DNA from: Deltaproteobacteria bacterium
GTDB lineage: Bacteria; Myxococcota_A; UBA796; GCA-2862545
Direction of reading: 5' to 3'
Assembly: GCA_006226595.1 (NCBI GenBank)
Contig: SBGP01000089.1
Span: 1-64,000 of the forward strand
Length of the DNA stretch: 64,000 nt
Positions 17,818 through 60,471 of this stretch are shown here, piece by piece; the first letter of the stretch is position 1, and each line of letters opens with the position of its first letter. Both the position numbers and the translations under genes were made by a program. A model generated the notes under the pieces. It searched no databases and was not told the DNA's origin. It was given only the letters and a program-made list of their open reading frames with translations.

Positions 17818-18029
17818 GGTCGTAGCGCTCAACCTCGCCTCCTGCAAATCGAATCAGCCGGCAATGCCAGCTCGCAGACGGAACCGCGGGAGCAGCAACA
17901 GCGCAACCCCACGCTGAGGATCTCCGGAACGAGCCCGATGTGCAGCGGATCGCTCGCGAACGCGCTCCGACGAGCGCACGCTCCCCGCAGGGGCGCGCCA
18001 AAACGGCATGCATGGTGGTTCGAGCTTGT

Positions 18030-18110
18030 CATGTCGACCCGACATGCCGTTGGCGTCGACATGTCGGGTCGACATGACCACCCGACATGCCCACATGTCG
18101 ACTCGACATC
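18030..18110. repeat. Cluster of three CATGTCG-N3-CGACATG palindromes upstream of module A
   Basis: Three 17-bp dyads: CATGTCGACCCGACATG (18030-18046), its exact reverse complement CATGTCGGGTCGACATG (18060-18076), and CATGTCGACTCGACATC (18094-18110, one arm mismatch). A lone half-site CGACATG lies at 18083-18089. Spacing between dyad centres is 30 and 34 bp, about three helical turns. The cluster begins about 240 bp upstream of the wHTH gene at 18272. A related cluster precedes the paralogous gene of module B. Candidate operator, recombination or origin-like site. The rest of 17818-18271 shows no gene. Confidence 0.75.
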
Positions 18111-18271
18111 ACTTCCCGGGCCGGCATCGATCCGACGTGGAAGTCACACGGATCCGGCAGGTCGCGGCGACAAGACTCCGGCGTGGTTCCGACACCGCGG
18201 CCCCACCGGCGCGACCGTTTCGAGACGTTCCCGAGCCACGCCTCCGACGGCCAACGAGTAACGCTCCAAAG

Positions 18272-19327
18272 ATGACTCGACCCTGGCCCCCGATCTGGCT
18301 CCAAGAGCCGCCGTACCACCCCGACCCGGAAAGTAGGCTGGATGAGGATGAACCCTTTCCCGGCTTCTCGATCGACGCCGTGGATCGGGCCTTCGTCAGC
18401 AAGCTAAGGCACTCGACCACCCTTCAGGACTACCTGCGAGGGGGCGGCGTCCTCCGAGACGGCGAGCTGTCGGACGCTGGGTACCTGCTCTTCGGAAAGG
18501 AGCCTCAGGACGAGTACCCCGGGGCCGGGCTCGTCCTCCAGCTGGACCGTGAACGACACCTGCTGACCGGACCCATCGCCGGATTCTCGATGCGCCTGCG
18601 CCAGACACTCGGATCAGGCTTCTGCGTCTCGGACGTCGACCAGGCGCTCAACGCCGCCTACGCGGCCAGGGACTGGAGCGACTCCGAGCCGGTGCACGCA
18701 CGGATCTGGTCGGACCGCCTGGAACTCGAGTTCGAGACCGGGAGCTCGGCATTGAACGAGCGCCTGGAGGCGGCGATGAAGCGGTTCGGATGGCGCCTGT
18801 GGCAAGACAACCGCCACGTCACCGCCCATCGCCGAGCCGGCGGGTCCGTGGTCATGGAGGTGGCGCCTCGTCCCGAGAGGACGGCTCCGACCAAGCCGCC
18901 TCCGACCACCGTTGAAGCGACCCGGAGCCGTCCAGCGCGTCTCGCGGAGGTCCCCAGAAGAAAGTCCGTGTCGACCAGGTCCACGACGTCCAAACCGCCA
19001 GCTCCCTCCCAGGTCTCGCGCGCAGCCACCTCACCCTCACCGCGACGCCCCGCACAACCTGCCTCTGCGGCCGACGGCAGCTGGCAGCTCCGCCTCCCAC
19101 GTTCCGAGCGCCGCCGCATGGTCCTCGACCTGATGCATGATGGCGAAGAGCGGACCAGGGCGGAGCTGCAGCGGTCCCTGAGTTGGAGTCGGGGCACGCT
19201 GCGCGACGTCCTGCGAGATCTGGTGGATGACCAGCAGCTCCGTACCGTCGTGGCCGAGCTCCGGGACCCCACGCAGCGCTACGCGATCACCTCAGCCGGC
19301 GAGCAGGCGCTCTCGGACGACGCGTAG
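18272..19327 (+). CDS. Schlafen/AAA_4-related protein with C-terminal winged helix (module A)
   Basis: A 351-residue protein. Residues about 45-190 resemble the part after the AlbA_2 nuclease domain in Schlafen/AAA_4 proteins: GELSDAGYLLFGKEPQDEYP (usual form tnAalLlFgkdPq) and QALNAAYAARDWSDSEPVHA (usual form EAlvNAvaHRDYs) followed by DRLELEFETG. The AlbA_2 domain itself is missing. Next comes a Pro/Arg/Ser linker (about 200-275) and a winged helix at 280-351 (LQRSLSWSRGTLRDVLRDLV, DPTQRYAIT). Its 3' end overlaps the convergent XRE gene by 36 bp. The module B protein at 43988 has the same layout. Probably a DNA-binding regulator of the element; no catalytic function is proposed. Confidence 0.7.
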   Translation: MTRPWPPIWLQEPPYHPDPESRLDEDEPFPGFSIDAVDRAFVSKLRHSTTLQDYLRGGGVLRDGELSDAGYLLFGKEPQDEYPGAGLVLQLDRERHLLTGPIAGFSMRLRQTLGSGFCVSDVDQALNAAYAARDWSDSEPVHARIWSDRLELEFETGSSALNERLEAAMKRFGWRLWQDNRHVTAHRRAGGSVVMEVAPRPERTAPTKPPPTTVEATRSRPARLAEVPRRKSVSTRSTTSKPPAPSQVSRAATSPSPRRPAQPASAADGSWQLRLPRSERRRMVLDLMHDGEERTRAELQRSLSWSRGTLRDVLRDLVDDQQLRTVVAELRDPTQRYAITSAGEQALSDDA

Positions 19328-19996
19328 CGCCCGGGACAGGCCGACCTTGCTGTCTGTATCCGCTTGCAGGAGGGGCAGGAGATTCGCGGTGCCGCGGTAG
19401 ACGTGGGGGGCGTCGCGGTAGTACCCCAGCGGCTCGTCAGGTCCCCAGTGGGCGGCGTGGTCTTCGAAGGCCCACCAGGCTTCTCGGCCATCGCCGAACG
19501 GGCGAAGGAACAGCTTGTAGAGCCGTTCCGGAGCGCCTGGCTTGTGTGGTGCCAGGAACTCCCACTGGTGAAGCGGGATCTGGCGTACCGCACGTTCGAA
19601 GCGGGCCCAGACCTCCCGCTCCTCCGGAAGCACGACCTCGACGACGCCCGGGTCGATCTCGAAGGCGAAGCCTGCCTCGAACAGGACCTCGCGCACATCG
19701 AGACGGTAGGTCTCCGCGAGATGCCAGATCAGCGCCAGGTCGGGCGCCTTGGCGGTTCCCTGTCGCTCCACCTTGGCGAGGTACGGCGGCGAGACGCCCA
19801 ACCCCTTGGCGGCGGCGGCCAGGGTGAGGCCCCGGCGCTCGCGGACCTCCCTGAGCCAGGTGCCAAAGCTCGGGAGAGGCCCCCAGACTGCTCGCACTCC
19901 GGGCTGCAGGTGCGGTTCTCCAGATGCGTCGAGAGCGAAGGGCTCGCTGGCAAGTTCGAGGGCACCAGCGAGTCGGGAGCGAAGTCGTTCGTTCAT
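19292..19996 (-). CDS. XRE-family regulator with long C-terminal domain (module A)
   Basis: A 234-residue protein. The helix-turn-helix lies at about 45-105: WLREVRERRGLTLAAAAKGL, GVSPPYLAKVERQGTAKAPD. It is preceded by a conserved lead (HLQPGVRAVWG) shared with the module B protein (VLHPGVRRLMWG). The C-terminal half (about 115-234, VLFEAGFAFEIDPG, WWAFEDHAAHWGPDEPLGYY) is not a family I recognise. The start is taken at ATG 19996; an in-frame GTG at 20011 would add five residues. It converges on the wHTH gene and diverges from the small HTH gene at 20191, so it may control the promoters in the 194-bp gap. Confidence 0.75.
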   Translation of the reverse strand: MNERLRSRLAGALELASEPFALDASGEPHLQPGVRAVWGPLPSFGTWLREVRERRGLTLAAAAKGLGVSPPYLAKVERQGTAKAPDLALIWHLAETYRLDVREVLFEAGFAFEIDPGVVEVVLPEEREVWARFERAVRQIPLHQWEFLAPHKPGAPERLYKLFLRPFGDGREAWWAFEDHAAHWGPDEPLGYYRDAPHVYRGTANLLPLLQADTDSKVGLSRALRVVRERLLAG

Positions 19997-20190
19997 GAAC
20001 CGCCCATACACCGTTTAGTTTCTTTACGCATTGCGCAGACATTCAAGAGCCCATCCGCATGCCTTTTTACGGCCTTGTCAAGCCGAGAAGCGGACACCTT
20101 TTGGTACTTCACGGGGCGGGCCGGGTGCTTAAATTGTCGTTGTCGCGCCGAGTCTCGGCCGACGCATCCCACCCGCCCCTTGGGAGGCCC

Positions 20191-20493
20191 ATGCCCCGTC
20201 GTCCCTCCAGCTTCTTCCTCCGCACCGACACCATTCAGAAGATCGTCGACCGCGCCCACCTCACCCACACCCAGTTCGCCAAGCACCTCGGTGTCAACCG
20301 CTCGCACTGGAGCGCGCTGGTCAATCGACGCCGTGCCGTGTCTCCAGAGATCCGCAGGGCGCTGCTGACCAGCCGCCACACCAAGAACTTCCCCGAGCAC
20401 GAGCTCTGGGAAGACCTCAGCGACCTGTCGTCTGCGCTGCTGGTGCCTCGCGCCGGCGTCGCCCAACCTCTGAGGTCCCCAAACCATCGATAG
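20191..20493 (+). CDS. Small HTH protein (module A)
   Basis: A 100-residue protein, ATG 20191 preceded by GGGAGG. The core FFLRTDTIQKIVDRAHLTHT-QFAKHLGVNRSHWSALVNRR looks like a XRE/Cro-type helix-turn-helix (QFAKHLGVNRSHWSAL as helices 2-3). It is followed by RRALLTSRHTKNFPEHELWE, shared almost word for word with the protein at 46748 (RQALLTSRYTRDVPEDELWE). No other domain is visible; the tail after residue 80 is module-specific. It lies upstream of the Pro-rich and recombinase genes on the same strand, so it could be a recombination-directionality factor or an early regulator (inference). Confidence 0.72.
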   Translation: MPRRPSSFFLRTDTIQKIVDRAHLTHTQFAKHLGVNRSHWSALVNRRRAVSPEIRRALLTSRHTKNFPEHELWEDLSDLSSALLVPRAGVAQPLRSPNHR

Positions 20494-21038: not shown

Positions 21039-22676
21039 ATGCCTGCCGTCCGAGTCGGGATCTACACGCGTGTGTCCACCGACCTCCAAGCCCACCAGGA
21101 CGAGGGCTCCCTCGACACCCAGGAGGCGCGCCTGCGCGCCGCCCTCCTGGCACGCGCCGGAGACCACGAGGTGGTCCGCGTCTTCCGTGAGGAGGGACAG
21201 TCCGGGAAATCCCTGGACCGGCCAGCACTGCAGCAGATGCTGGACGCCGTCAGGCGCCGGGAGCTCGACCTCATCATCGTCACACGCATCGATCGCCTCT
21301 CTCGGTCGCTACTCGACTTCTACGAGGTGCATCGGCTGTTCGAGGAGCATGAGGTCCGCTTCGTCTCCCTGAACGAGACGTTCGACACCAGCAGCGCCGT
21401 GGGCCGCGCCATGCTCAAGCTGGTCCTCGTCTTCGCCGAGCTCGAACGCGAGCAGACCGCAGAGCGCACCAGACTGGCCATGCGGGCGCGGGCCGAGCGC
21501 GGACTCTGGAACGGGGGACGCCCACCCCTCGGCTACGACGGCGAGTCCGGCGGCCACCTCGCTGTCAACTCTGAGGAGGCGAAGGTCGTCCGCCTGATCT
21601 TCGCCAAGTACCCGGAGATCAGGAGCACACCCAAGCTCGCCAAATGGCTGAACGAGAGTGGCTACCGGCAGAAGCGGTACGTGTCGCGACGGCGAGGCCA
21701 GACTGGCGGCAAACCGTTCACCTCGGCAGCCGTACTCGGCATTCTCAAGAACCGCGTCTACCTGGGTGAGGTCTCCCATCATGGTGACCGGTTCGAGGGC
21801 CAGCACGAGGCGATCGTCGCACCCGACGCTTTCGCACAAGCGGCCACCATCATCGAAGCCAACACCCGCAACCGGGGCAAAGCACCGGCCCGCACGAACT
21901 ACGACTACCTGCTCACGGGCCTCGTGCGTTGCACATGCGGCTCCTCGCTCACCACGTCCGCCGGCAAGAGCCGGAACGGCACCGTGTATCACTACTACCG
22001 CTGCGTCGGCATGAACAAGAAGCTGGACCACGTATGTCCGGTGAAGATGGTGAACGCCGAGAACCTGGAGCGACGTGTGGTCCGCATCGTCCGGGAGGCC
22101 GCTCGCAGTCCGCAGATTGTCGAAGCCGCGCTCGCCGAGGCGAACGCGATGGCCAACACACGCCTCGCGCCCGTGCAGGAGCAGGTAGACCAGCTCAAGC
22201 GGGACCTGCAACGCGCTTCCGACGAGGCGGAACAGCTCCTGAGCCTCATTCTCACCCAGGGCCTGGGGCAGAGTGCGACGGCGAAACGGAAGCTGGAGGA
22301 GGCCGAGCGAAGGCATAGCCAGCTGCGCACCACGCTCGGGACTGCGGAAGGTGAGCTCATCCGACTGCAGTCGCAACAGCTCGACATGCCGGTGGTCGTC
22401 GAAGCCCTTCAGGGTTTCGATGCGGTGTTCAACATCCTCTCCGTCGACGAAAAGCGAGACCTACTCAATCTACTGGTCCAGCAGATCACGGTGTTCGAGG
22501 ACCGGGTGGAGGTCCGGCTCCATGAAGGCCACGCCGCGACGGCCTATCTCGTCGAGAACGAGACCGTGAACCAAGCCGCTGAGCACGAAACCCCGGGCGT
22601 TGACCCGGGGTTTGTGACCGTTTCGAAGTGGCTCCCCAGCCCGAAGCCAGGGCAAACATCGCCTTCGCCCGGCTGA
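21039..22676 (+). CDS. Large serine recombinase (module A)
   Basis: A 545-residue site-specific recombinase. The start at 21039 has CAGGAGG six bases upstream. Domains: resolvase catalytic domain 4-150 with the nucleophile in YTRVSTD (Ser13) and the conserved DRLSRSLLDF and GRAMLKLVLVFAELEREQ; recombinase domain about 165-275 (PLGYDGESGGHLAVNSEEAK, LAKWLNESGYRQKRYVSRR); zinc ribbon about 290-345 (RCTCGSSL...RCVG...CPV); coiled coil 375-455. It is clearly paralogous to the protein at 48256. It would cut and rejoin DNA at att sites to integrate or excise the surrounding element. A 10-bp hairpin lies inside its last codons. Confidence 0.93.
   Translation: MPAVRVGIYTRVSTDLQAHQDEGSLDTQEARLRAALLARAGDHEVVRVFREEGQSGKSLDRPALQQMLDAVRRRELDLIIVTRIDRLSRSLLDFYEVHRLFEEHEVRFVSLNETFDTSSAVGRAMLKLVLVFAELEREQTAERTRLAMRARAERGLWNGGRPPLGYDGESGGHLAVNSEEAKVVRLIFAKYPEIRSTPKLAKWLNESGYRQKRYVSRRRGQTGGKPFTSAAVLGILKNRVYLGEVSHHGDRFEGQHEAIVAPDAFAQAATIIEANTRNRGKAPARTNYDYLLTGLVRCTCGSSLTTSAGKSRNGTVYHYYRCVGMNKKLDHVCPVKMVNAENLERRVVRIVREAARSPQIVEAALAEANAMANTRLAPVQEQVDQLKRDLQRASDEAEQLLSLILTQGLGQSATAKRKLEEAERRHSQLRTTLGTAEGELIRLQSQQLDMPVVVEALQGFDAVFNILSVDEKRDLLNLLVQQITVFEDRVEVRLHEGHAATAYLVENETVNQAAEHETPGVDPGFVTVSKWLPSPKPGQTSPSPG
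22588..22613 (+). terminator. Hairpin in the 3' end of recombinase A
   Basis: AAACCCCGGG (22588-22597) and CCCGGGGTTT (22604-22613) pair perfectly around the loop CGTTGA. No U-tract follows (GTGACC), so it may be a Rho-dependent or attenuating structure. It lies inside the coding region, 63 bp before the recombinase stop. A longer hairpin occurs at the same relative place in recombinase B. Confidence 0.5.
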
Positions 22677-22900: not shown

Positions 22901-22961
22901 AACTTGTTGTTCGAAGCCATCAGACCCCCCAATACACCTAGTTTTGGGTTATCATGGAAGT

Positions 22962-23243
22962 ATGGACGAGATGACGCTCCTGCTCACCCCGGCCGACGCG
23001 GCGCAGCTTCTTCGCTCACGCGTGCGCGCGGCACGCAAGCGTCGAGGTTGGACCCAGGCCGAGCTCGCCGAGCACGCGGGGGTGTCCACCAACACCGTCG
23101 CTCGACTGGAGCGCAGCGGCGGCGGCCAGCTGCACACGCTCTTCGGCGTACTCGCCGCGCTCGAGCACCTGACCGACGTCGACGCGCTCCTCCAAGCTCC
23201 AGAGCCCACCACGCTGGACGAGCTCCGCAGGAGCCGGCGATGA
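22962..23243 (+). CDS. hipB: HipB-like antitoxin
   Basis: A 93-residue protein. The XRE helix-turn-helix is at about 18-70: RVRAARKRRGWTQAELAEHA and GVSTNTVARLERSGGGQLHT. The tail is rich in Leu/Asp (ALEHLTDVDALLQAPEPTTL). It starts at ATG 22962, preceded by GGAAG; an ATG at 22971 is an alternative. The stop overlaps the hipA start (ATGA), the normal tight coupling of type II toxin-antitoxin pairs. The protein would bind the promoter and neutralise the HipA kinase. The upstream sequence (22901-22961) is distinctly AT-richer than its surroundings and probably holds the promoter. Confidence 0.85.
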   Translation: MDEMTLLLTPADAAQLLRSRVRAARKRRGWTQAELAEHAGVSTNTVARLERSGGGQLHTLFGVLAALEHLTDVDALLQAPEPTTLDELRRSRR

Positions 23244-24490
23244 GGGAGCTCCGTGTCTCCCTCCAGTTCGCGGATCCAGTCGATGTCGGCGTGCTCGTCG
23301 AAGATGAGCAGGGGCGCATCTACTTCGAGTTCGCGCAGAGCTTCCTCGACTCGGGACACGCCATCTCCCCGTACACGCTCCCGGCCCGCCCGGGCCTGCA
23401 CGCTCACCAACCGAAGCCGGGCGTACCGCTGCCTGGCGTGTTCTCCGACTCCCGTCCGGACGGCTGGGGTCTGCGCCTGCTCCACCGCCGCTTCGCGAAC
23501 GCTGGACGCCCTCGGTCACAGGTCACCCCTTTCGATGAGCTCGCGTTCCTCGGCCAGCGCGCCATGGGCGCACTCGCCTACGAGCCCACCACCGGACCCG
23601 ACACCCTCTTCGAAGCCGTGGAGCTCGGCTCCCTCGCCGCGCATGCCCTCGACGTCTATGCGGGCCACACCACCGAGACGCTCCCTGCGCTGATCCGTGC
23701 CGGTGGTTCGCCGGGCGGCGTGCGCCCCAAGGCGCTCATCGGCCGTCGAGGAGACGAGGTCTGCATCGGCGAGGCGGAGCTCCCGGAGGGATTCGCCCAC
23801 TGGCTGGTGAAGTTCGCCCGCCCCGAGGACGACCCGGACGCCGCACGCCGCGAGGCCGCATGGATGGCCCTCGCCCGCAGGGCCGGCCTGACGGTGGCCG
23901 ACTCCGAGGTGCTCCAGCTCGGGCCCGACGTCGGCGACGCCTTCGCCACCCGCCGCTTCGATCGCAGCCCCCACCGGCAACACATGCTCTCCGCCGCCGG
24001 CGCTCTGAATGTCGACTTTCGGACTGCCCACGCCGACTACCACGATCTCGGCAGGCTCTGCGCACTGATCTGCCGCGGCGACCAATCCCAGGTGGCGCGC
24101 CTGGTGCGCCTCGGCATGTTCAACGTGGTCGCCCGCAACGAGGACGATCACCTGAAGAACCTGGCCTGGTTGTACGACGGCGACCGCTGGGCGCTTTCCC
24201 CTGCCTACGACCTTACCTACGCCCCCCACGCCTCCGGGCATCGCCAGACCGCGGTACTCGGTGGCACGCAGCAAGTCTCGAGGACGCTACTGCTCGAGCT
24301 CGGCACCGGCCTGGGCCTCCGGCAAGGCGTCGCACAGACCATACTCGACGAGGTCCTGGAGGCACTGGCAGACGTGGAGTCCGTCCTCGGCGACTTCGGC
24401 TGCACCCATGCGGTCTCGCGGGCCGCGGCGGCGGATGTGCTCGCCCAAGTGGAACGCACCAGGGAAAACGGAAGAAGAAAGGAGACATAA
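23240..24490 (+). CDS. hipA: HipA-family serine/threonine kinase toxin
   Basis: A 416-residue protein of normal HipA length. The N-terminal couple_hipA region has GVFSDSRPDGWGLRLL. The nucleotide-binding loop is GGSPGGVRPKALIG, and the catalytic region is ARNEDDHLKNLAWLYDGDRW (Asp as base and Asn for metal), followed by LSPAYDLTYAP, the metal-binding equivalent of DFG. E. coli HipA phosphorylates glutamyl-tRNA synthetase; the target here is not readable. All catalytic positions are present, so the toxin is probably active. Located directly after module A and before an IS3 remnant, typical of accessory DNA. Confidence 0.9.
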   Translation: MRELRVSLQFADPVDVGVLVEDEQGRIYFEFAQSFLDSGHAISPYTLPARPGLHAHQPKPGVPLPGVFSDSRPDGWGLRLLHRRFANAGRPRSQVTPFDELAFLGQRAMGALAYEPTTGPDTLFEAVELGSLAAHALDVYAGHTTETLPALIRAGGSPGGVRPKALIGRRGDEVCIGEAELPEGFAHWLVKFARPEDDPDAARREAAWMALARRAGLTVADSEVLQLGPDVGDAFATRRFDRSPHRQHMLSAAGALNVDFRTAHADYHDLGRLCALICRGDQSQVARLVRLGMFNVVARNEDDHLKNLAWLYDGDRWALSPAYDLTYAPHASGHRQTAVLGGTQQVSRTLLLELGTGLGLRQGVAQTILDEVLEALADVESVLGDFGCTHAVSRAAAADVLAQVERTRENGRRKET

Positions 24491-42094: not shown

Positions 42095-43319
42095 GAGGCC
42101 TCAGCGGGTGCGACCGCCGGTCCGCGCGGCACAGCCGTCGCTCCTCGGCCGTGACCGCCTTCCGAACAGGGCTCCGCGCTTCCGCGACCACCCGAGCTCG
42201 GTACCGAGACCGCGGTGCCAGCACCCCTCGATAGATCACCAGGTTCGAGTGCTTGAGGGGCACCAGCGCCGCGAGCCGCCCCACCAGCTCCTCTGGCGTG
42301 AATACGAACGCCGTCGTGCCGTCGCTCCAGGGCTTCTTCAGACGCAGCACCACCGCACCATCTGCCCGTCGATCGAGGCGGCTCTTCGCCAGCGCAGGTC
42401 GATTCACGTACCGGCACAGCCGCTCCAGGACCTCTCGATCCCGGGGCGCGATGCGGACCGCCGCGTGAAGGTTGTAGCCATCCCGAACCGCGCACCGCTC
42501 GGGCAGCCGGACCTCGCGGCCGCCAACGGTGACCATGCGACGCGCCTTCTGCCAGCGCCGCGGCCCGACCACGGTCAGCCCCTGGAGTGCACCTGCCTGA
42601 AGCAGCTGTTGAGCATCGGCCGAGTCCTCCTCTTCCCCAACGTCGAGTCCCTCGGCAACCAGCCACGCCTCGCAGTCCGCGGCAATCTGGTCGACCACCG
42701 TCTGCACCTCCCGGGTGCTCGGGGATGGCGAAGGGTGCCACCGCAGTTGGCCGTCGCTCTCCTCCCTGTAGACCCCATCGAGCCAGAGCATGTGCGCGTG
42801 GACGTTCAGCCGCAGGGCGCTGCCGAAGCGCTGCAGCACCGCGACCGAGCCGGTGCGCCCACCCTCCACACCCTGCCGACACAGGGCTGCCTCGTACCAC
42901 TGCTCGATGGCTTCACTTGCGATGCGTAGCAGGTCCAGCACCACGTCGTGGCGGCGTGCCAGCAGCATCCGGATCTTCCACGGGAACGTGAGCACCCACT
43001 GTCGCACACCGACCACCGGCAGCACGTGGTCTACCCAGTGTGCCGCCCTCTCCGCCATGCGACGGCCGCCACACGATGGGCAGAACCCTCGCCCCTTGCA
43101 CGAGAACGGGCGGTGGTGGTTGCAGCCCTCACACGCGAGGCAGGCGAAGCCCTGGCGAAAGTCCCCACACGCCACGAAGGCCTCGAGCTCCTTGTGCACG
43201 AACCGCGGCAGGAACCGGTCGGACGCGTCGAGGTGCGCCACGAAGCCCGGAAGTCCCTCCTCCACCGCGCTGTACAGGAGGTCACCCGCAGCGCCGCAGT
43301 GCTCGACCGAGAGGACCAT
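42095..43319 (-). mobile_element. IS91-family transposase, truncated at the 3' end
   Basis: About 405 residues of an HUH (Y1/Y2) transposase. The N-terminal zinc-binding part has CLACEGCNHHRPFSCKGRGF and CPSCGGRRMAERAAHWVDHV; the HUH motif is RLNVHAHMLWLDG; near the end KHSNLVIYRGVLAPRSRYRA is the usual C-terminal YHG-x-APN region. After that the frame runs into sequence opposite the TetR gene, so the normal C-terminus and the 3' origin (oriIS), needed for rolling-circle transposition, are missing. ATG 43319 is taken as start, with AGGAGG nearly touching it; GTG 43331 is an alternative. Two hairpins lie just upstream (43327-43345 and 43386-43404). Confidence 0.8.
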
Positions 43320-43800: not shown

Positions 43801-43954
43801 CATGTCCGTCATGACATGACAAGTCGGACATGGGCCTGGGAGCGGCATGTGAGCACTCCTGACATGCCCGCCATGTCAGAAGCCGGGAGCTGACATGGCA
43901 CTCCCCGGCTTCCCGAGAATCGCCCGGGGAGCCCGTGAACACGCCCCATGTCAG
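43801..43954. repeat. Cluster of CATGTC/GACATG palindromes upstream of module B
   Basis: CATGTCC (43801-43807) pairs with GGACATG (43826-43832) around an inner dyad GTCATG-a-CATGAC (43808-43820). CTGACATG-cccgc-CATGTCAG (43859-43879) is a perfect dyad. Further half-sites are CTGACATG at 43890-43897 and CATGTCAG at 43947-43954. All share CATGTC/GACATG with the module A cluster but with other flanks. The cluster ends 33 bp before the wHTH gene start, so it covers its promoter. Confidence 0.72.
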
Positions 43955-45717: not shown

Positions 45718-46389
45718 TCAGTCGATCCGCGACAGGGTCTTGTCCCGCGCCTCCTCCCAGTCCTCTTCCGTCTCGCGCTGCTTCAGATCGCTATAGGCAT
45801 CCGCCCACCAGTCCACACCCCAGGGGAAGTTGCGGTGGACCTCGTGGTGGAGCTCGAAGCTGTCGTCCTCGCGCACCACCGCCTCCAGTCGATAGGCGAA
45901 CTGCAGCCACGCGCGCTTCACACGGGGGCCGAGCACGTCCCCGAGCCCCTCGTACGACGGGTGGGCGAGGGCGGGGTGCGACAGCATGCCCTCGAAGGCA
46001 TCCACCGTGGGGTCCCAGCGCATGCGCACCTGGTCGGGGTACACCTCCGCCAAGAACCCCGCCTTGGTGAGCACCTCGTTGCGGGAGGTGGTGTACCAGG
46101 TCGCCACCTGGTCCAAGAACACCAGGCTCGGCGCCTTCGCCGTGCCCTCGCGCTCCACCCGCGCCAGGTAGGTGCCCGAGACCCCCACGTAGTTGCTCCC
46201 CTCGGCAAGCGTGATGCCCCGCCTCTCCCGCTCGCCGCGGAGCCAAGGCCCGAACTCGGGCTCGTGCCCCCACATCAGGCGGCGTACCCCCGGGTGCAGC
46301 ACCACTTCGGGCTCGCCGTCGGCGGTGCGCTCGATGCGCATGACGGCATCGGCGAGGGTGTCGGGCTTCACGAACTTGGTGTGGGCCAT
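45718..46389 (-). CDS. XRE-family regulator with long C-terminal domain (module B)
   Basis: A 223-residue protein; ATG 46389 preceded by AAGGAGG. HTH at about 45-100: WLRGERERRGITLAEGSNYV, GVSGTYLARVEREGTAKAPS, matching the module A protein at 19292 (PYLAKVERQGTAKAPD). The lead VLHPGVRRLMWGHEPEFGP is also shared. The C-terminal half (VYPDQVRMRWDPTVDAFEGM, WGVDWWADAYSDLKQRETEE) is diverged from that of module A and not a family I know. Convergent with the wHTH gene (170-bp gap), divergent from the small HTH gene at 46748. Confidence 0.78.
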   Translation of the reverse strand: MAHTKFVKPDTLADAVMRIERTADGEPEVVLHPGVRRLMWGHEPEFGPWLRGERERRGITLAEGSNYVGVSGTYLARVEREGTAKAPSLVFLDQVATWYTTSRNEVLTKAGFLAEVYPDQVRMRWDPTVDAFEGMLSHPALAHPSYEGLGDVLGPRVKRAWLQFAYRLEAVVREDDSFELHHEVHRNFPWGVDWWADAYSDLKQRETEEDWEEARDKTLSRID

Positions 46390-46747
46390 GGGCTGACCTC
46401 CTTGCCCTGCCTGATAACTAAAATGTTGCCGGGAGGAAAGAGGGATCGGACATCGAACGGCCTCATGACGTCCTCGAGACGCCCACACCGGTACCGACGC
46501 CCACCTCCTACAACACACAGAAGCCCTGCACATCACCGAATCGCGCTGGGGAACCTCCTGCGGGCGAGCCCTTGAACTTTTTTGTTCAATCCGGGTGGCC
46601 CCTCGATTCGAGATCGCCTAGACTCCAGTTGGGGAACGTTCGCCGCAGCCCTGTGGCCGACGTCTCCGGTTCGACCTGCGTCCTCGCCCACCTGTGCGAG
46701 GCGGATGCCTCCGTGCGCCCGCCTCTCGCCGTCTCCTGGGAGCCTCG
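46390..46747. promoter_or_regulatory. Divergent regulatory gap of module B with TTGAAC-N6-GTTCAA dyad
   Basis: A 358-bp gap between the XRE and small HTH genes. TTGAAC (46572-46577) and GTTCAA (46584-46589) form a dyad around six T, a good candidate site for the XRE protein. AT-richer patches (GATAACTAAAATGTTGCC at 46422-46439) sit in front of the XRE gene and may hold its promoter. No coding sequence is evident. Module A has a 194-bp gap in the same place without this dyad. Confidence 0.5.
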
Positions 46748-46999
46748 ATGTCCGCACCCAAGCGCCAGTACTTCCTCAAGACCCACACCCTCCAGGCGGT
46801 GCTCGACCGCTGCCACCTCACCCACACCCGCTTCGCTCGGCACCTCGGCATCCACCGCTCTCACTGGAGCCAGTTGTTCAACGCGCGCCGGCCCGTCTCA
46901 CCCGACATGCGCCAGGCGCTCCTCACGAGCCGCTACACCCGAGACGTGCCCGAGGACGAGCTCTGGGAGGTGCGGCTGCCCGAGGGCGCGTGCAACTGA
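46748..46999 (+). CDS. Small HTH protein (module B)
   Basis: An 83-residue protein, ATG 46748 with GGGAG upstream. YFLKTHTLQAVLDRCHLTHT, RFARHLGIHRSHWSQLFNAR, RQALLTSRYTRDVPEDELWE: a Cro/XRE-like helix-turn-helix followed by a conserved tail, clearly paralogous to the protein at 20191 across its whole length. The two share the H-x-THT-x-FA-x-HLG-x-x-RSHWS core. The C-terminus is shorter by about 17 residues. Candidate regulator or excision factor of the element. Confidence 0.75.
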   Translation: MSAPKRQYFLKTHTLQAVLDRCHLTHTRFARHLGIHRSHWSQLFNARRPVSPDMRQALLTSRYTRDVPEDELWEVRLPEGACN

Positions 47000-48255: not shown

Positions 48256-49872
48256 ATGCGCGTTGCGATCTACACCCGAGTCTCCACCGACATCCAGGCG
48301 GGGCGGGAGGAGGGCTCGCTGGAGACCCAGGAGGCGCGGCTGCGCGCCTACCTCACGTCTCGGGGCGACCACGTCGTCGCCGGCGTCTACCGGGAGGAGG
48401 GCGCCTCCGGAAAGTCGCTGGACCGCCCCGAGCTCCAGCGCCTGCTGCGCGATGTCCAGGGCGGACAGCTCGACCTCATCGTCGTCACCCGCCTGGACCG
48501 CCTGAGCCGCTCACTCCTCGACTTCTTCGAGGTCCACGCTCTGCTGGAGAAGCACGAGGTCGCGTTTACGTCCCTCAACGAGAGCTTCGACACCTCCACG
48601 CCGCTCGGTCGGGCGATGCTCAAGCTCGTGCTCGTCTTCGCAGAGCTCGAGCGCGAGCAGACCGCGGACCGCACTCGACAGGCGATGCGCGCGCGGTCGG
48701 AGCGGGGGCTGTGGAACGGTGGTGCGCCTCCACTCGGCTACGACTCCCAGGGAAACGGACACCTCGACGTCAACGACGAGGAGGCTCGCGTCGTGCGCCT
48801 CGCCTTCGACCGCTATTGCGAACTCCGTTCGGCACCAAAGCTCGCCAAGTGGCTCAACGGCGAGGGCTACCGACAGAAACGCTACGTCTCCCGCCGCAAG
48901 GGACCCACAGGAGGCAAGAAGTTCTCCGCGGCATCCGTGCGCATCATGCTCCGAAACCAGCTGTACCTCGGCAAGATCACCCACAAGGGCGACGTCTTCG
49001 AGGGTCAGCACGACCCGATCGTCGACACCGACGTCTTCGACCGGGTGCAGGCCATCCTCGACGGCAACGCCGTGAAGAAGCGCGGTCCGCAGGAGGGGGC
49101 CAACTACCCGTTCCCGCTCGTCGGCGTGCTCCGCTGCAGCTGTGGCTACGCCATGTCCTCGCTCTCGGTGCGCAAGCCGAAGCGGCGCTACTTCTACTAC
49201 GAGTGCATCTCCAAGACGAAGGACCCGGAGCGCCCCTGCGAGGTGAAGCGCGTCCGCGCCAAGGCGCTGGACGAGGCTGCGCTGAAGGTGCTCCGCGACG
49301 CCGCTCGCTCACCCGAGATCGTCGATGCCGCCGTCGAGGAGGCGAACCGGATGATCACCGAGCAGTTCGGACCGCTACAGGCGAAGGTCGACGACCAGCG
49401 CCGCGAGCTCGCCCAGGTCGAGGACGAGGGCAAGCGGCTGATCCGCAAGCTGATGCTCTCGGACCTCGACGACAACAACTTCGGCCGGGAGATGGTCAAC
49501 GAGCTGGAAGAGCGTCGCACCCAGCTCCGCGACGCCATCGCCCGCGGGGAAGCCGAGCTGGCCTCCGCCGAGATGAAGCGCCTGGACGCCGAGTACCTCC
49601 GCGAGGCCCTGCTCAACTTCGACGCGGTCTGGGACAGCCTCGACGATGCCGAGAAGCGGGAGTTGCTCCAGACCCTCGTTCTCCAGGTCGTGGTCCACAC
49701 GGAGCGCATCGATGTCGACCTCTACGACGGTCGCAACGTCTGCGAGGAGTGGCTCAAGCCGGCTCGACGCAAGCCCCTGAGCAACAAGACCCAGGGCACT
49801 TCCGTTAAGCCGGAAGTTTGCCCTGGGTCTGAGGTGGCTCCCGCTGCTGGACTCGAACCAGCGACCCTCTGA
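48256..49872 (+). CDS. Large serine recombinase (module B)
   Basis: A 538-residue recombinase. Catalytic domain 1-145 with YTRVSTD (Ser10), DRLSRSLLDFFEVHALLEKH and LKLVLVFAELEREQTADRTR; recombinase domain (PPLGYDSQGNGHLDVNDEEA, LAKWLNGEGYRQKRYVSRR); zinc ribbon LRCSCGYAM...YECIS...RPCEV; coiled coil at about 370-440. Strongly paralogous to the protein at 21039, roughly two-thirds identical by eye in the catalytic part. The last 12 codons (APAAGLEPATL and stop) are encoded by the antisense strand of tRNA-Asn, so the gene ends inside the tRNA, which fits integration at that tRNA. Confidence 0.93.
   Translation: MRVAIYTRVSTDIQAGREEGSLETQEARLRAYLTSRGDHVVAGVYREEGASGKSLDRPELQRLLRDVQGGQLDLIVVTRLDRLSRSLLDFFEVHALLEKHEVAFTSLNESFDTSTPLGRAMLKLVLVFAELEREQTADRTRQAMRARSERGLWNGGAPPLGYDSQGNGHLDVNDEEARVVRLAFDRYCELRSAPKLAKWLNGEGYRQKRYVSRRKGPTGGKKFSAASVRIMLRNQLYLGKITHKGDVFEGQHDPIVDTDVFDRVQAILDGNAVKKRGPQEGANYPFPLVGVLRCSCGYAMSSLSVRKPKRRYFYYECISKTKDPERPCEVKRVRAKALDEAALKVLRDAARSPEIVDAAVEEANRMITEQFGPLQAKVDDQRRELAQVEDEGKRLIRKLMLSDLDDNNFGREMVNELEERRTQLRDAIARGEAELASAEMKRLDAEYLREALLNFDAVWDSLDDAEKRELLQTLVLQVVVHTERIDVDLYDGRNVCEEWLKPARRKPLSNKTQGTSVKPEVCPGSEVAPAAGLEPATL
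49787..49830. terminator. Long two-part hairpin between recombinase B and tRNA-Asn
   Basis: AGACCCAGGGCA (49787-49798) pairs perfectly with TGCCCTGGGTCT (49819-49830); inside, CTTCCG (49799-49804) pairs with CGGAAG (49811-49816) around TTAAGC. Total 44 nt with one small bulge (TT). It is 4 bp from the 3' end of tRNA-Asn. It can serve as terminator from both sides, and resembles the smaller hairpin at the same place in recombinase A. There is no U-tract. Confidence 0.6.
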
Positions 49873-49911
49873 TTAACAGTCAGATGCTCTAACCAGCTGA
49901 GCTAAGCGGGA
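49835..49911 (-). tRNA. tRNA-Asn (anticodon GUU)
   Basis: On the minus strand the sequence folds as a tRNA: acceptor TCCCGCT pairs with AGCGGGA, D-arm GCTCAGCTGGTTAGAGC, anticodon stem TCTGA/TCAGA with loop CTGTTAA (anticodon GTT at 49875-49877), T-arm CTGGTTCGAGTCCAG, encoded GCCA at the end. The 77 nt include CCA. No disrupting mismatch is visible, so the gene is intact although the recombinase B coding frame ends inside it on the other strand. A classical integration target at its 3' end. Confidence 0.95.
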
Positions 49912-49984
49912 AGAGGGTGCCACCGCCGAGGCGATGCGCCCGCCCTACTATCCCTGCTCGCCTGGGTGGGCAAGCAGGTGATCG

Positions 49985-59977: not shown

Positions 59978-60036
59978 GCCGAAGGCGGGGCCGGCGGTGG
60001 AGGAACCGACGGTGCTGGGCGTGCCGAGTCCGGCGC

Positions 60037-60420
60037 GACGCCTGGCACCGTACCCGGCACGACGCCTGGCACCGCACCCGGCACGACGCCTGGCACCGCA
60101 ACCGGCACGACGCCTGGCACCGCCACCGGCACGACGCCTGGCACCGCCACCGGCACGACGCCTGGCACCGCAACCGGTCCCACGCCTGGCACCGTACCGA
60201 GTCCCACGCCTGGCACCGTACCGAGTCCCACGCCTGGCACCGTACCGAGTCCCACGCCTGGCACCGCCACCGGGACGACGCCTGGCACCGCCACCGGGAC
60301 GACGCCTGGCACCGCCACCGGCACGACGCCTGGCACCGCACCCGGCATGACGCCTGGCACCGCCACCGGCACGACGCCTGGCACCGCCACCGGCACGACG
60401 CCTGGCACCGCAACCGCCAC
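60037..60420. repeat. 16-copy tandem repeat of a 24-bp unit
   Basis: Sixteen consecutive 24-bp units, each starting (G/C)ACGCCTGGCACCG; variable bases lie in the last ten positions, with variants such as CACCGGCAC, ACCCGGCAC and TACCGAGTCC. Three adjacent units with TACCGAGTCC are identical, indicating local slippage. Because 24 is divisible by three, every frame gives an 8-residue repeat: T-P-G-T-A-T-G-T in the frame of the upstream ATP-grasp gene (after its stop), and A-V-P-G-V-V-P-V on the minus strand. No start with RBS clearly favours a gene. It separates the ATP-grasp gene from the oxidoreductase operon. Not a CRISPR array: no spacers. Confidence 0.9.
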
Positions 60421-60471
60421 GCCTGACACCGAACGCGCCACACACGGGATAGTCTGGGCCTCGGAGGACTC

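Follow-up and report, generated by a model that had tools for sequence, protein, structure and literature searches.

A dense array of CATGTC/GACATG sites stands immediately ahead of a winged helix-turn-helix (wHTH) regulator gene in a mobile-element cassette of a deltaproteobacterial genome (GCA_006226595.1). The array is real, conserved and regulatory-looking, and it does not represent a new kind of system. The window, i.e., the whole stretch analysed, comprises 64,000 nt of contig SBGP01000089.1. Three copies were found in the genome: module A (18024), module B, to which the cluster described here belongs, and copy C, which is located on another contig and broken by the contig end. In all three copies, the array lies directly upstream of the wHTH gene. 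From its sequence context, the array is probably, though by no means certainly, an operator at the left end of the element's regulatory cassette, bound by the element's own wHTH protein and controlling that protein's promoter.

The CATGTC cluster of module B

Seven exact sites, at 43801(+), 43813(-), 43827(-), 43861(-), 43872(+), 43892(-) and 43947(+), and one near-site, CATGTG at 43846, make up the cluster. A dyad CATGTC-6-GACATG (43801-43818) falls within an inverted repeat with 16-bp arms (43801-43832). It is accompanied by an everted dyad, CTGACATG-5-CATGTCAG (43859-43879), and by a third dyad, GCCATGTCAG-10-CTGACATGGC (43870-43899). The preliminary description had reported a second dyad cluster ahead of the module B wHTH gene, and the counts bear this out. 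Seven sites in 152 bp compare with 0.09 expected from the window density (Poisson P ~1e-11), and 5000 dinucleotide-shuffled versions of the stretch never contained that many (mean 0.37, maximum 5). Chance or compositional clustering deserves almost no credence. CATGTC is indeed not over-represented across the window (39 occurrences versus 31 expected), so that only its clustering is unusual, but the Poisson probability, the three paralogous copies and the absence of core differences between modules A and C all speak against such an origin.

Gene order and the mobile-element setting

The cassette runs in the order cluster, wHTH gene, convergent XRE gene (XREm), divergent small XRE gene (sXRE) and recombinase (Table 1). 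As proposed earlier, the module B gene is a wHTH paralogue of the module A gene, and the cassette order is the same in both modules. Judged by this gene order, by its recurrence in module A and by the recombinase overlapping tRNA-Asn, module B is a small integrated mobile element. Similarity at tRNA-Asn ends at the tRNA 3' end in most related genomes. A search for att repeats of modules A and B returned no convincing direct repeat. A 13-bp direct repeat, AGGGTGCCACCGC, flanks module B (42732-42744 and 49914-49926) and is within chance (E 0.1).

Table 1 Features of modules A and B in the window
Feature	Coordinates	Strand	Remarks
Module A CATGTC cluster	18024..18112	.	Seven CATGTCG sites (18030-18099); dyads CATGTC-5-GACATG at 18030 and 18060, imperfect one at 18094
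Module A regulator paralogue, 351 aa	18272..19327	+	Without AlbA_2-like N-terminus
Module A XREm gene	19292..19996	-	
Module A sXRE gene	20191..20493	+	
Module A large serine recombinase	21041..22676	+	Start assigned from module B homology
Module B CATGTC cluster	43801..43952	.	Seven exact sites, next base A or C, in several dyads
Module B regulator, 516 aa	43997..45547	+	Degenerate AlbA_2-like N-terminus, HATPase_c_4-like middle, Pro-rich linker, C-terminal winged helix (residues ~450-512)
Module B XREm, XRE-family HTH gene	45718..46536	-	Convergent with module B wHTH gene
Module B sXRE, small XRE/HigA-like gene	46750..46999	+	Divergent from XREm; 61% identity to module A copy
Module B large serine recombinase	48256..49872	+	3' end reaches 38 bp into tRNA-Asn
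tRNA-Asn(gtt)	49835..49911	-	Likely right boundary and integration target of element B

Additionally, a perfect palindrome, TTGAAC-TTTTTT-GTTCAA (46572-46589), lies in the intergenic region of the divergent XREm/sXRE pair of module B and is a candidate XRE operator. A HipA-like gene (22904-24490) directly follows the module A recombinase and is possible cargo. Elsewhere in the window, self-comparison revealed tandem repeats with a 24-bp period (60030-60441).

Copy C and the extent of the conserved unit

Copy C lies at the end of contig C37 and shares 88% DNA identity with module A, from 18024 to the contig end. The homology starts at the cluster, since 18024 is only six bases ahead of the first array site. 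What remains of sXRE is matched at the end of contig C63; beyond it the similarity is lost, and a tyrosine integrase adjoins. We infer that both contig ends belong to one element, copy C. Modules A and B carry serine recombinases, and a tyrosine integrase (Phage_integrase) stands beside copy C. On the basis of the C37 and C63 matches to module A and the different recombinase in copy C, the conserved A/C unit appears as array, wHTH, XREm and sXRE (18024-20463), with an exchangeable recombinase and the array as its outer edge. A link of the array to the recombinase was rejected, because recombinase/XRE elements of the class lack the array and the recombinase of copy C is of another type.

Conserved cores and changed flanks

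The arrays of A and C differ at 7 of 89 bases and at 0 of 38 core bases, whereas 24 of 159 leader bases differ (Fisher 0.005). Thus, the A/C cores are conserved while the spacers and the leader vary. Immediately after the core, every one of the 14 A and C sites has G, whereas none of the seven B sites does; in order, these have C,A,C,A,A,A,A. The earlier claim of a common core with changed flanks in module B is therefore correct. The spacing and orientation of the sites also differ between A and B, which counts against the operator reading. Module A contains three dyads of the CATGTC-5-GACATG type, two perfect and one imperfect, at intervals of 30-34 bp, and module B has none with that spacing.

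The preliminary description went further and took the flank difference as a sign that each wHTH protein has co-evolved with its own operator. The wHTH paralogy, the shared core and the clean flank difference stand, but co-evolution as stated is unsupported. The genome holds two independent flank types only, A and C being near-identical. Among other homologues, a distant one (G010) has an array without a wHTH, another (G032) has only one site strictly upstream and a third (G060) has none. Moreover, each module encodes two XRE-type HTH proteins that might read the array. The preliminary interpretation is on the whole plausible and partly borne out, co-evolution of each wHTH protein with its operator being a plausible hypothesis.

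Architecture of the regulator

The best PDB profile match of the module B regulator was 3lmm (E 3e-13), which was also the top Foldseek match (E 1e-7). Overall confidence in the AlphaFold model is low (mean pLDDT 56), and only the winged helix and some of the middle domain can be used. The C-terminal winged helix was modelled with pLDDT near 88 (residues 451-500) and gave MarR-type fold matches. The homologue P0004 passed the HTH_IclR and MarR_2 cut-offs in this region, and the matches of the module B regulator itself (P0001) fell below them.

In Pfam searches, neither P0001 nor the module A paralogue P0002 matched SLFN_AlbA_2 (PF04326) or HATPase_c_4 (PF13749). Alignment suggests a degenerate AlbA_2 domain in P0001, P0004 and P0005 and none in P0002. 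For HATPase_c_4, P0005 scored above the cut-off and P0004 below it. Homologues thus bridge to the two families, P0005 through its passing HATPase_c_4 and the generic relative P0006 through both domains. By these comparisons, the body of the module B regulator resembles a degenerate Schlafen/RecG-like (AlbA_2/HATPase_c_4) protein. Its domain order is that of AlbA_2/HATPase_c_4/wHTH proteins (PF04326, PF13749 and HTH; 3lmm). Unlike in those proteins, the AlbA_2 and HATPase domains of the modules are degenerate, and module A has no AlbA_2 domain. No functional study of this architecture was found in open papers on these domain names.

Distribution of the array

The regulator subfamily is rare in the class (71 genomes). 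Scans of genome contigs with P0001 and P0002 turned up no relatives, and neither did viral contigs, plasmids or phages. The preliminary description expected similar clusters upstream of other homologues, which proved only partly right: a clear CATGTC array in G010 and a weak set in G032, none in G060 and none in more than 20 generic relatives.

In G010, which belongs to another genus of the family, CATGTCATGTC occurs twice within 27 bp just ahead of the start codon. That codon opens an AlbA/HATPase-like gene; behind it come an XRE gene read in the +1 frame, then one small gene and finally a tyrosine integrase akin to the copy C enzyme (E 3e-11). The run of the AlbA/HATPase-like gene into the +1-frame XRE gene (L150 1546-2893) may be a frameshift fusion, decay or an assembly error. 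No wHTH was recognised in G010 and the array is present all the same, which counts against the operator reading. G032 counts against it too: strictly upstream it has only one site (P 0.1), and further sites overlap or follow the start codon. CATGTC at the start codons of G010 and G032 was given no weight, because Met-Ser starts yield this word for free. No CATGTC sites were found upstream in G060 or in the G018 fragment.

The generic AlbA_2/HATPase relatives (more than 20) have at most two CATGTC sites near the start and, unlike modules A and B, no array. Elements of the class with XREm, sXRE and recombinase genes and no such wHTH gene showed no comparable array, the best being L104 with four scattered sites 4 kb from sXRE. 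Together, these two sets indicate that the array goes with the wHTH gene. The recognition helix is alike in the array carriers ([ST]R[GS]T.R) and differs in the site-less G060 (SRPVVGK). Across the class outside the source genome, a triple-site pattern was found at scattered single places. In viral contigs, the 17-bp dyad of the A type matched 25 loci, none of which had more than four CATGTC sites in 160 bp.

Possible roles: operator, XRE operator or origin

Clustered, conserved dyads are present upstream of the regulator gene. An autoregulatory operator is favoured because the cluster is far above chance, three copies lie directly upstream of a wHTH gene, the A/C homology starts at the cluster with unchanged cores, G010 has an array, the array goes with the gene and the carriers share a similar recognition helix. 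In the proposed mechanism, the element-encoded wHTH protein would recognise CATGTC half-sites; binding would probably involve a dimer and co-operation between several sites. The bound protein would repress or tune its own promoter and thereby the state of the element. Promoter consensus scans found nothing, which counts against this reading. The main rival reader is XREm, because G010 keeps the array and XREm and not the wHTH; the array would then be the operator of this repressor, governing the wHTH gene from a distance in the style of prophage repressors. XREm is encoded in each of the four carriers of a clear array (A, B, C and G010). Over 101 aa of the HTH region, the XREm proteins of A and B share 51% identity, which exceeds the likeness of the wHTH proteins, and 17-bp dyads suit XRE dimers. 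We nevertheless regard XREm as an unlikely reader, given that at least 10 elements of the class have XREm homologues without CATGTC arrays. In addition, the XREm/sXRE intergenic region, where autoregulation would be expected, contains no CATGTC, which also counts in favour of the wHTH protein.

Alternatively, the array may be a replication origin or a recombination or packaging site at the element end, with the wHTH or a helper's protein as initiator. In favour of this, nothing conserved in the A/C unit lies further left than the array, and the recombinase is at the opposite end. The idea was kept mainly on account of CATGGAC[CG] arrays next to VapE-domain helicase genes, as elements with VapE-type helicases carry this other CATG-word array just after the helicase gene. 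Such a position is typical of satellite origins. The origins of PLE satellites hold semi-palindromic iterons (PMC7145576). Like SaPI and PLE iteron origins, the arrays consist of short, partly palindromic repeated words in an integrated element, but A, B and C differ from these in lacking a recognised replication gene and a nearby AT-rich unwinding region. No initiator, helicase or primase was recognised among the scanned genes of A, B and C, elements whose limits are established in part, and the minimum 40-bp GC near the arrays is 0.53 (A), 0.55 (B) and 0.60 (C). Site spacing is irregular in B, and G032, with a DUF3854 replication-type gene, has a different repeat, GGGTGGTC, beside that gene. 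An origin or element-end site is accordingly quite improbable.

The CATGGAC[CG] arrays were observed in XREm/sXRE/serine-recombinase elements of the class (L104 6623-6740, L105 9574-9700, L109 5420-5545, L111 10010-10085 and L117 5626-5750) and are candidate replication origins. The GGGTGGTC repeats (L102 14444-14568) lie between the DUF3854 gene and the G032 wHTH gene, and a TTATGCGGA/TCCGCATAA word cluster (L107 9845-9970) is found in another sXRE element.

Possible separate control of co-resident elements

The autoregulatory operator would resemble lambda cI/Cro-type arrays, in which several dyads likewise lie just upstream of the regulator in an integrase-bearing element; the candidate reader here differs in being a wHTH protein of unusual architecture with predicted binding. 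A shared core followed by A or C in module B, as against G in the other two copies, might allow co-resident elements to be controlled separately and so insulated from each other. It is conceivable, if rather doubtful, that sister elements keep the operator core and switch the adjacent base while their degenerate Schlafen/RecG-like wHTH regulators track the change, giving each element private control. If true, the sister elements would amount to a small, naturally occurring set of specificities within a regulator family not yet studied. If the operator reading is right, the array would be the first DNA target for the widespread, little-studied AlbA_2/HATPase_c_4/wHTH architecture and would make it readily testable how mobile elements that share a genome avoid cross-talk between their switches.
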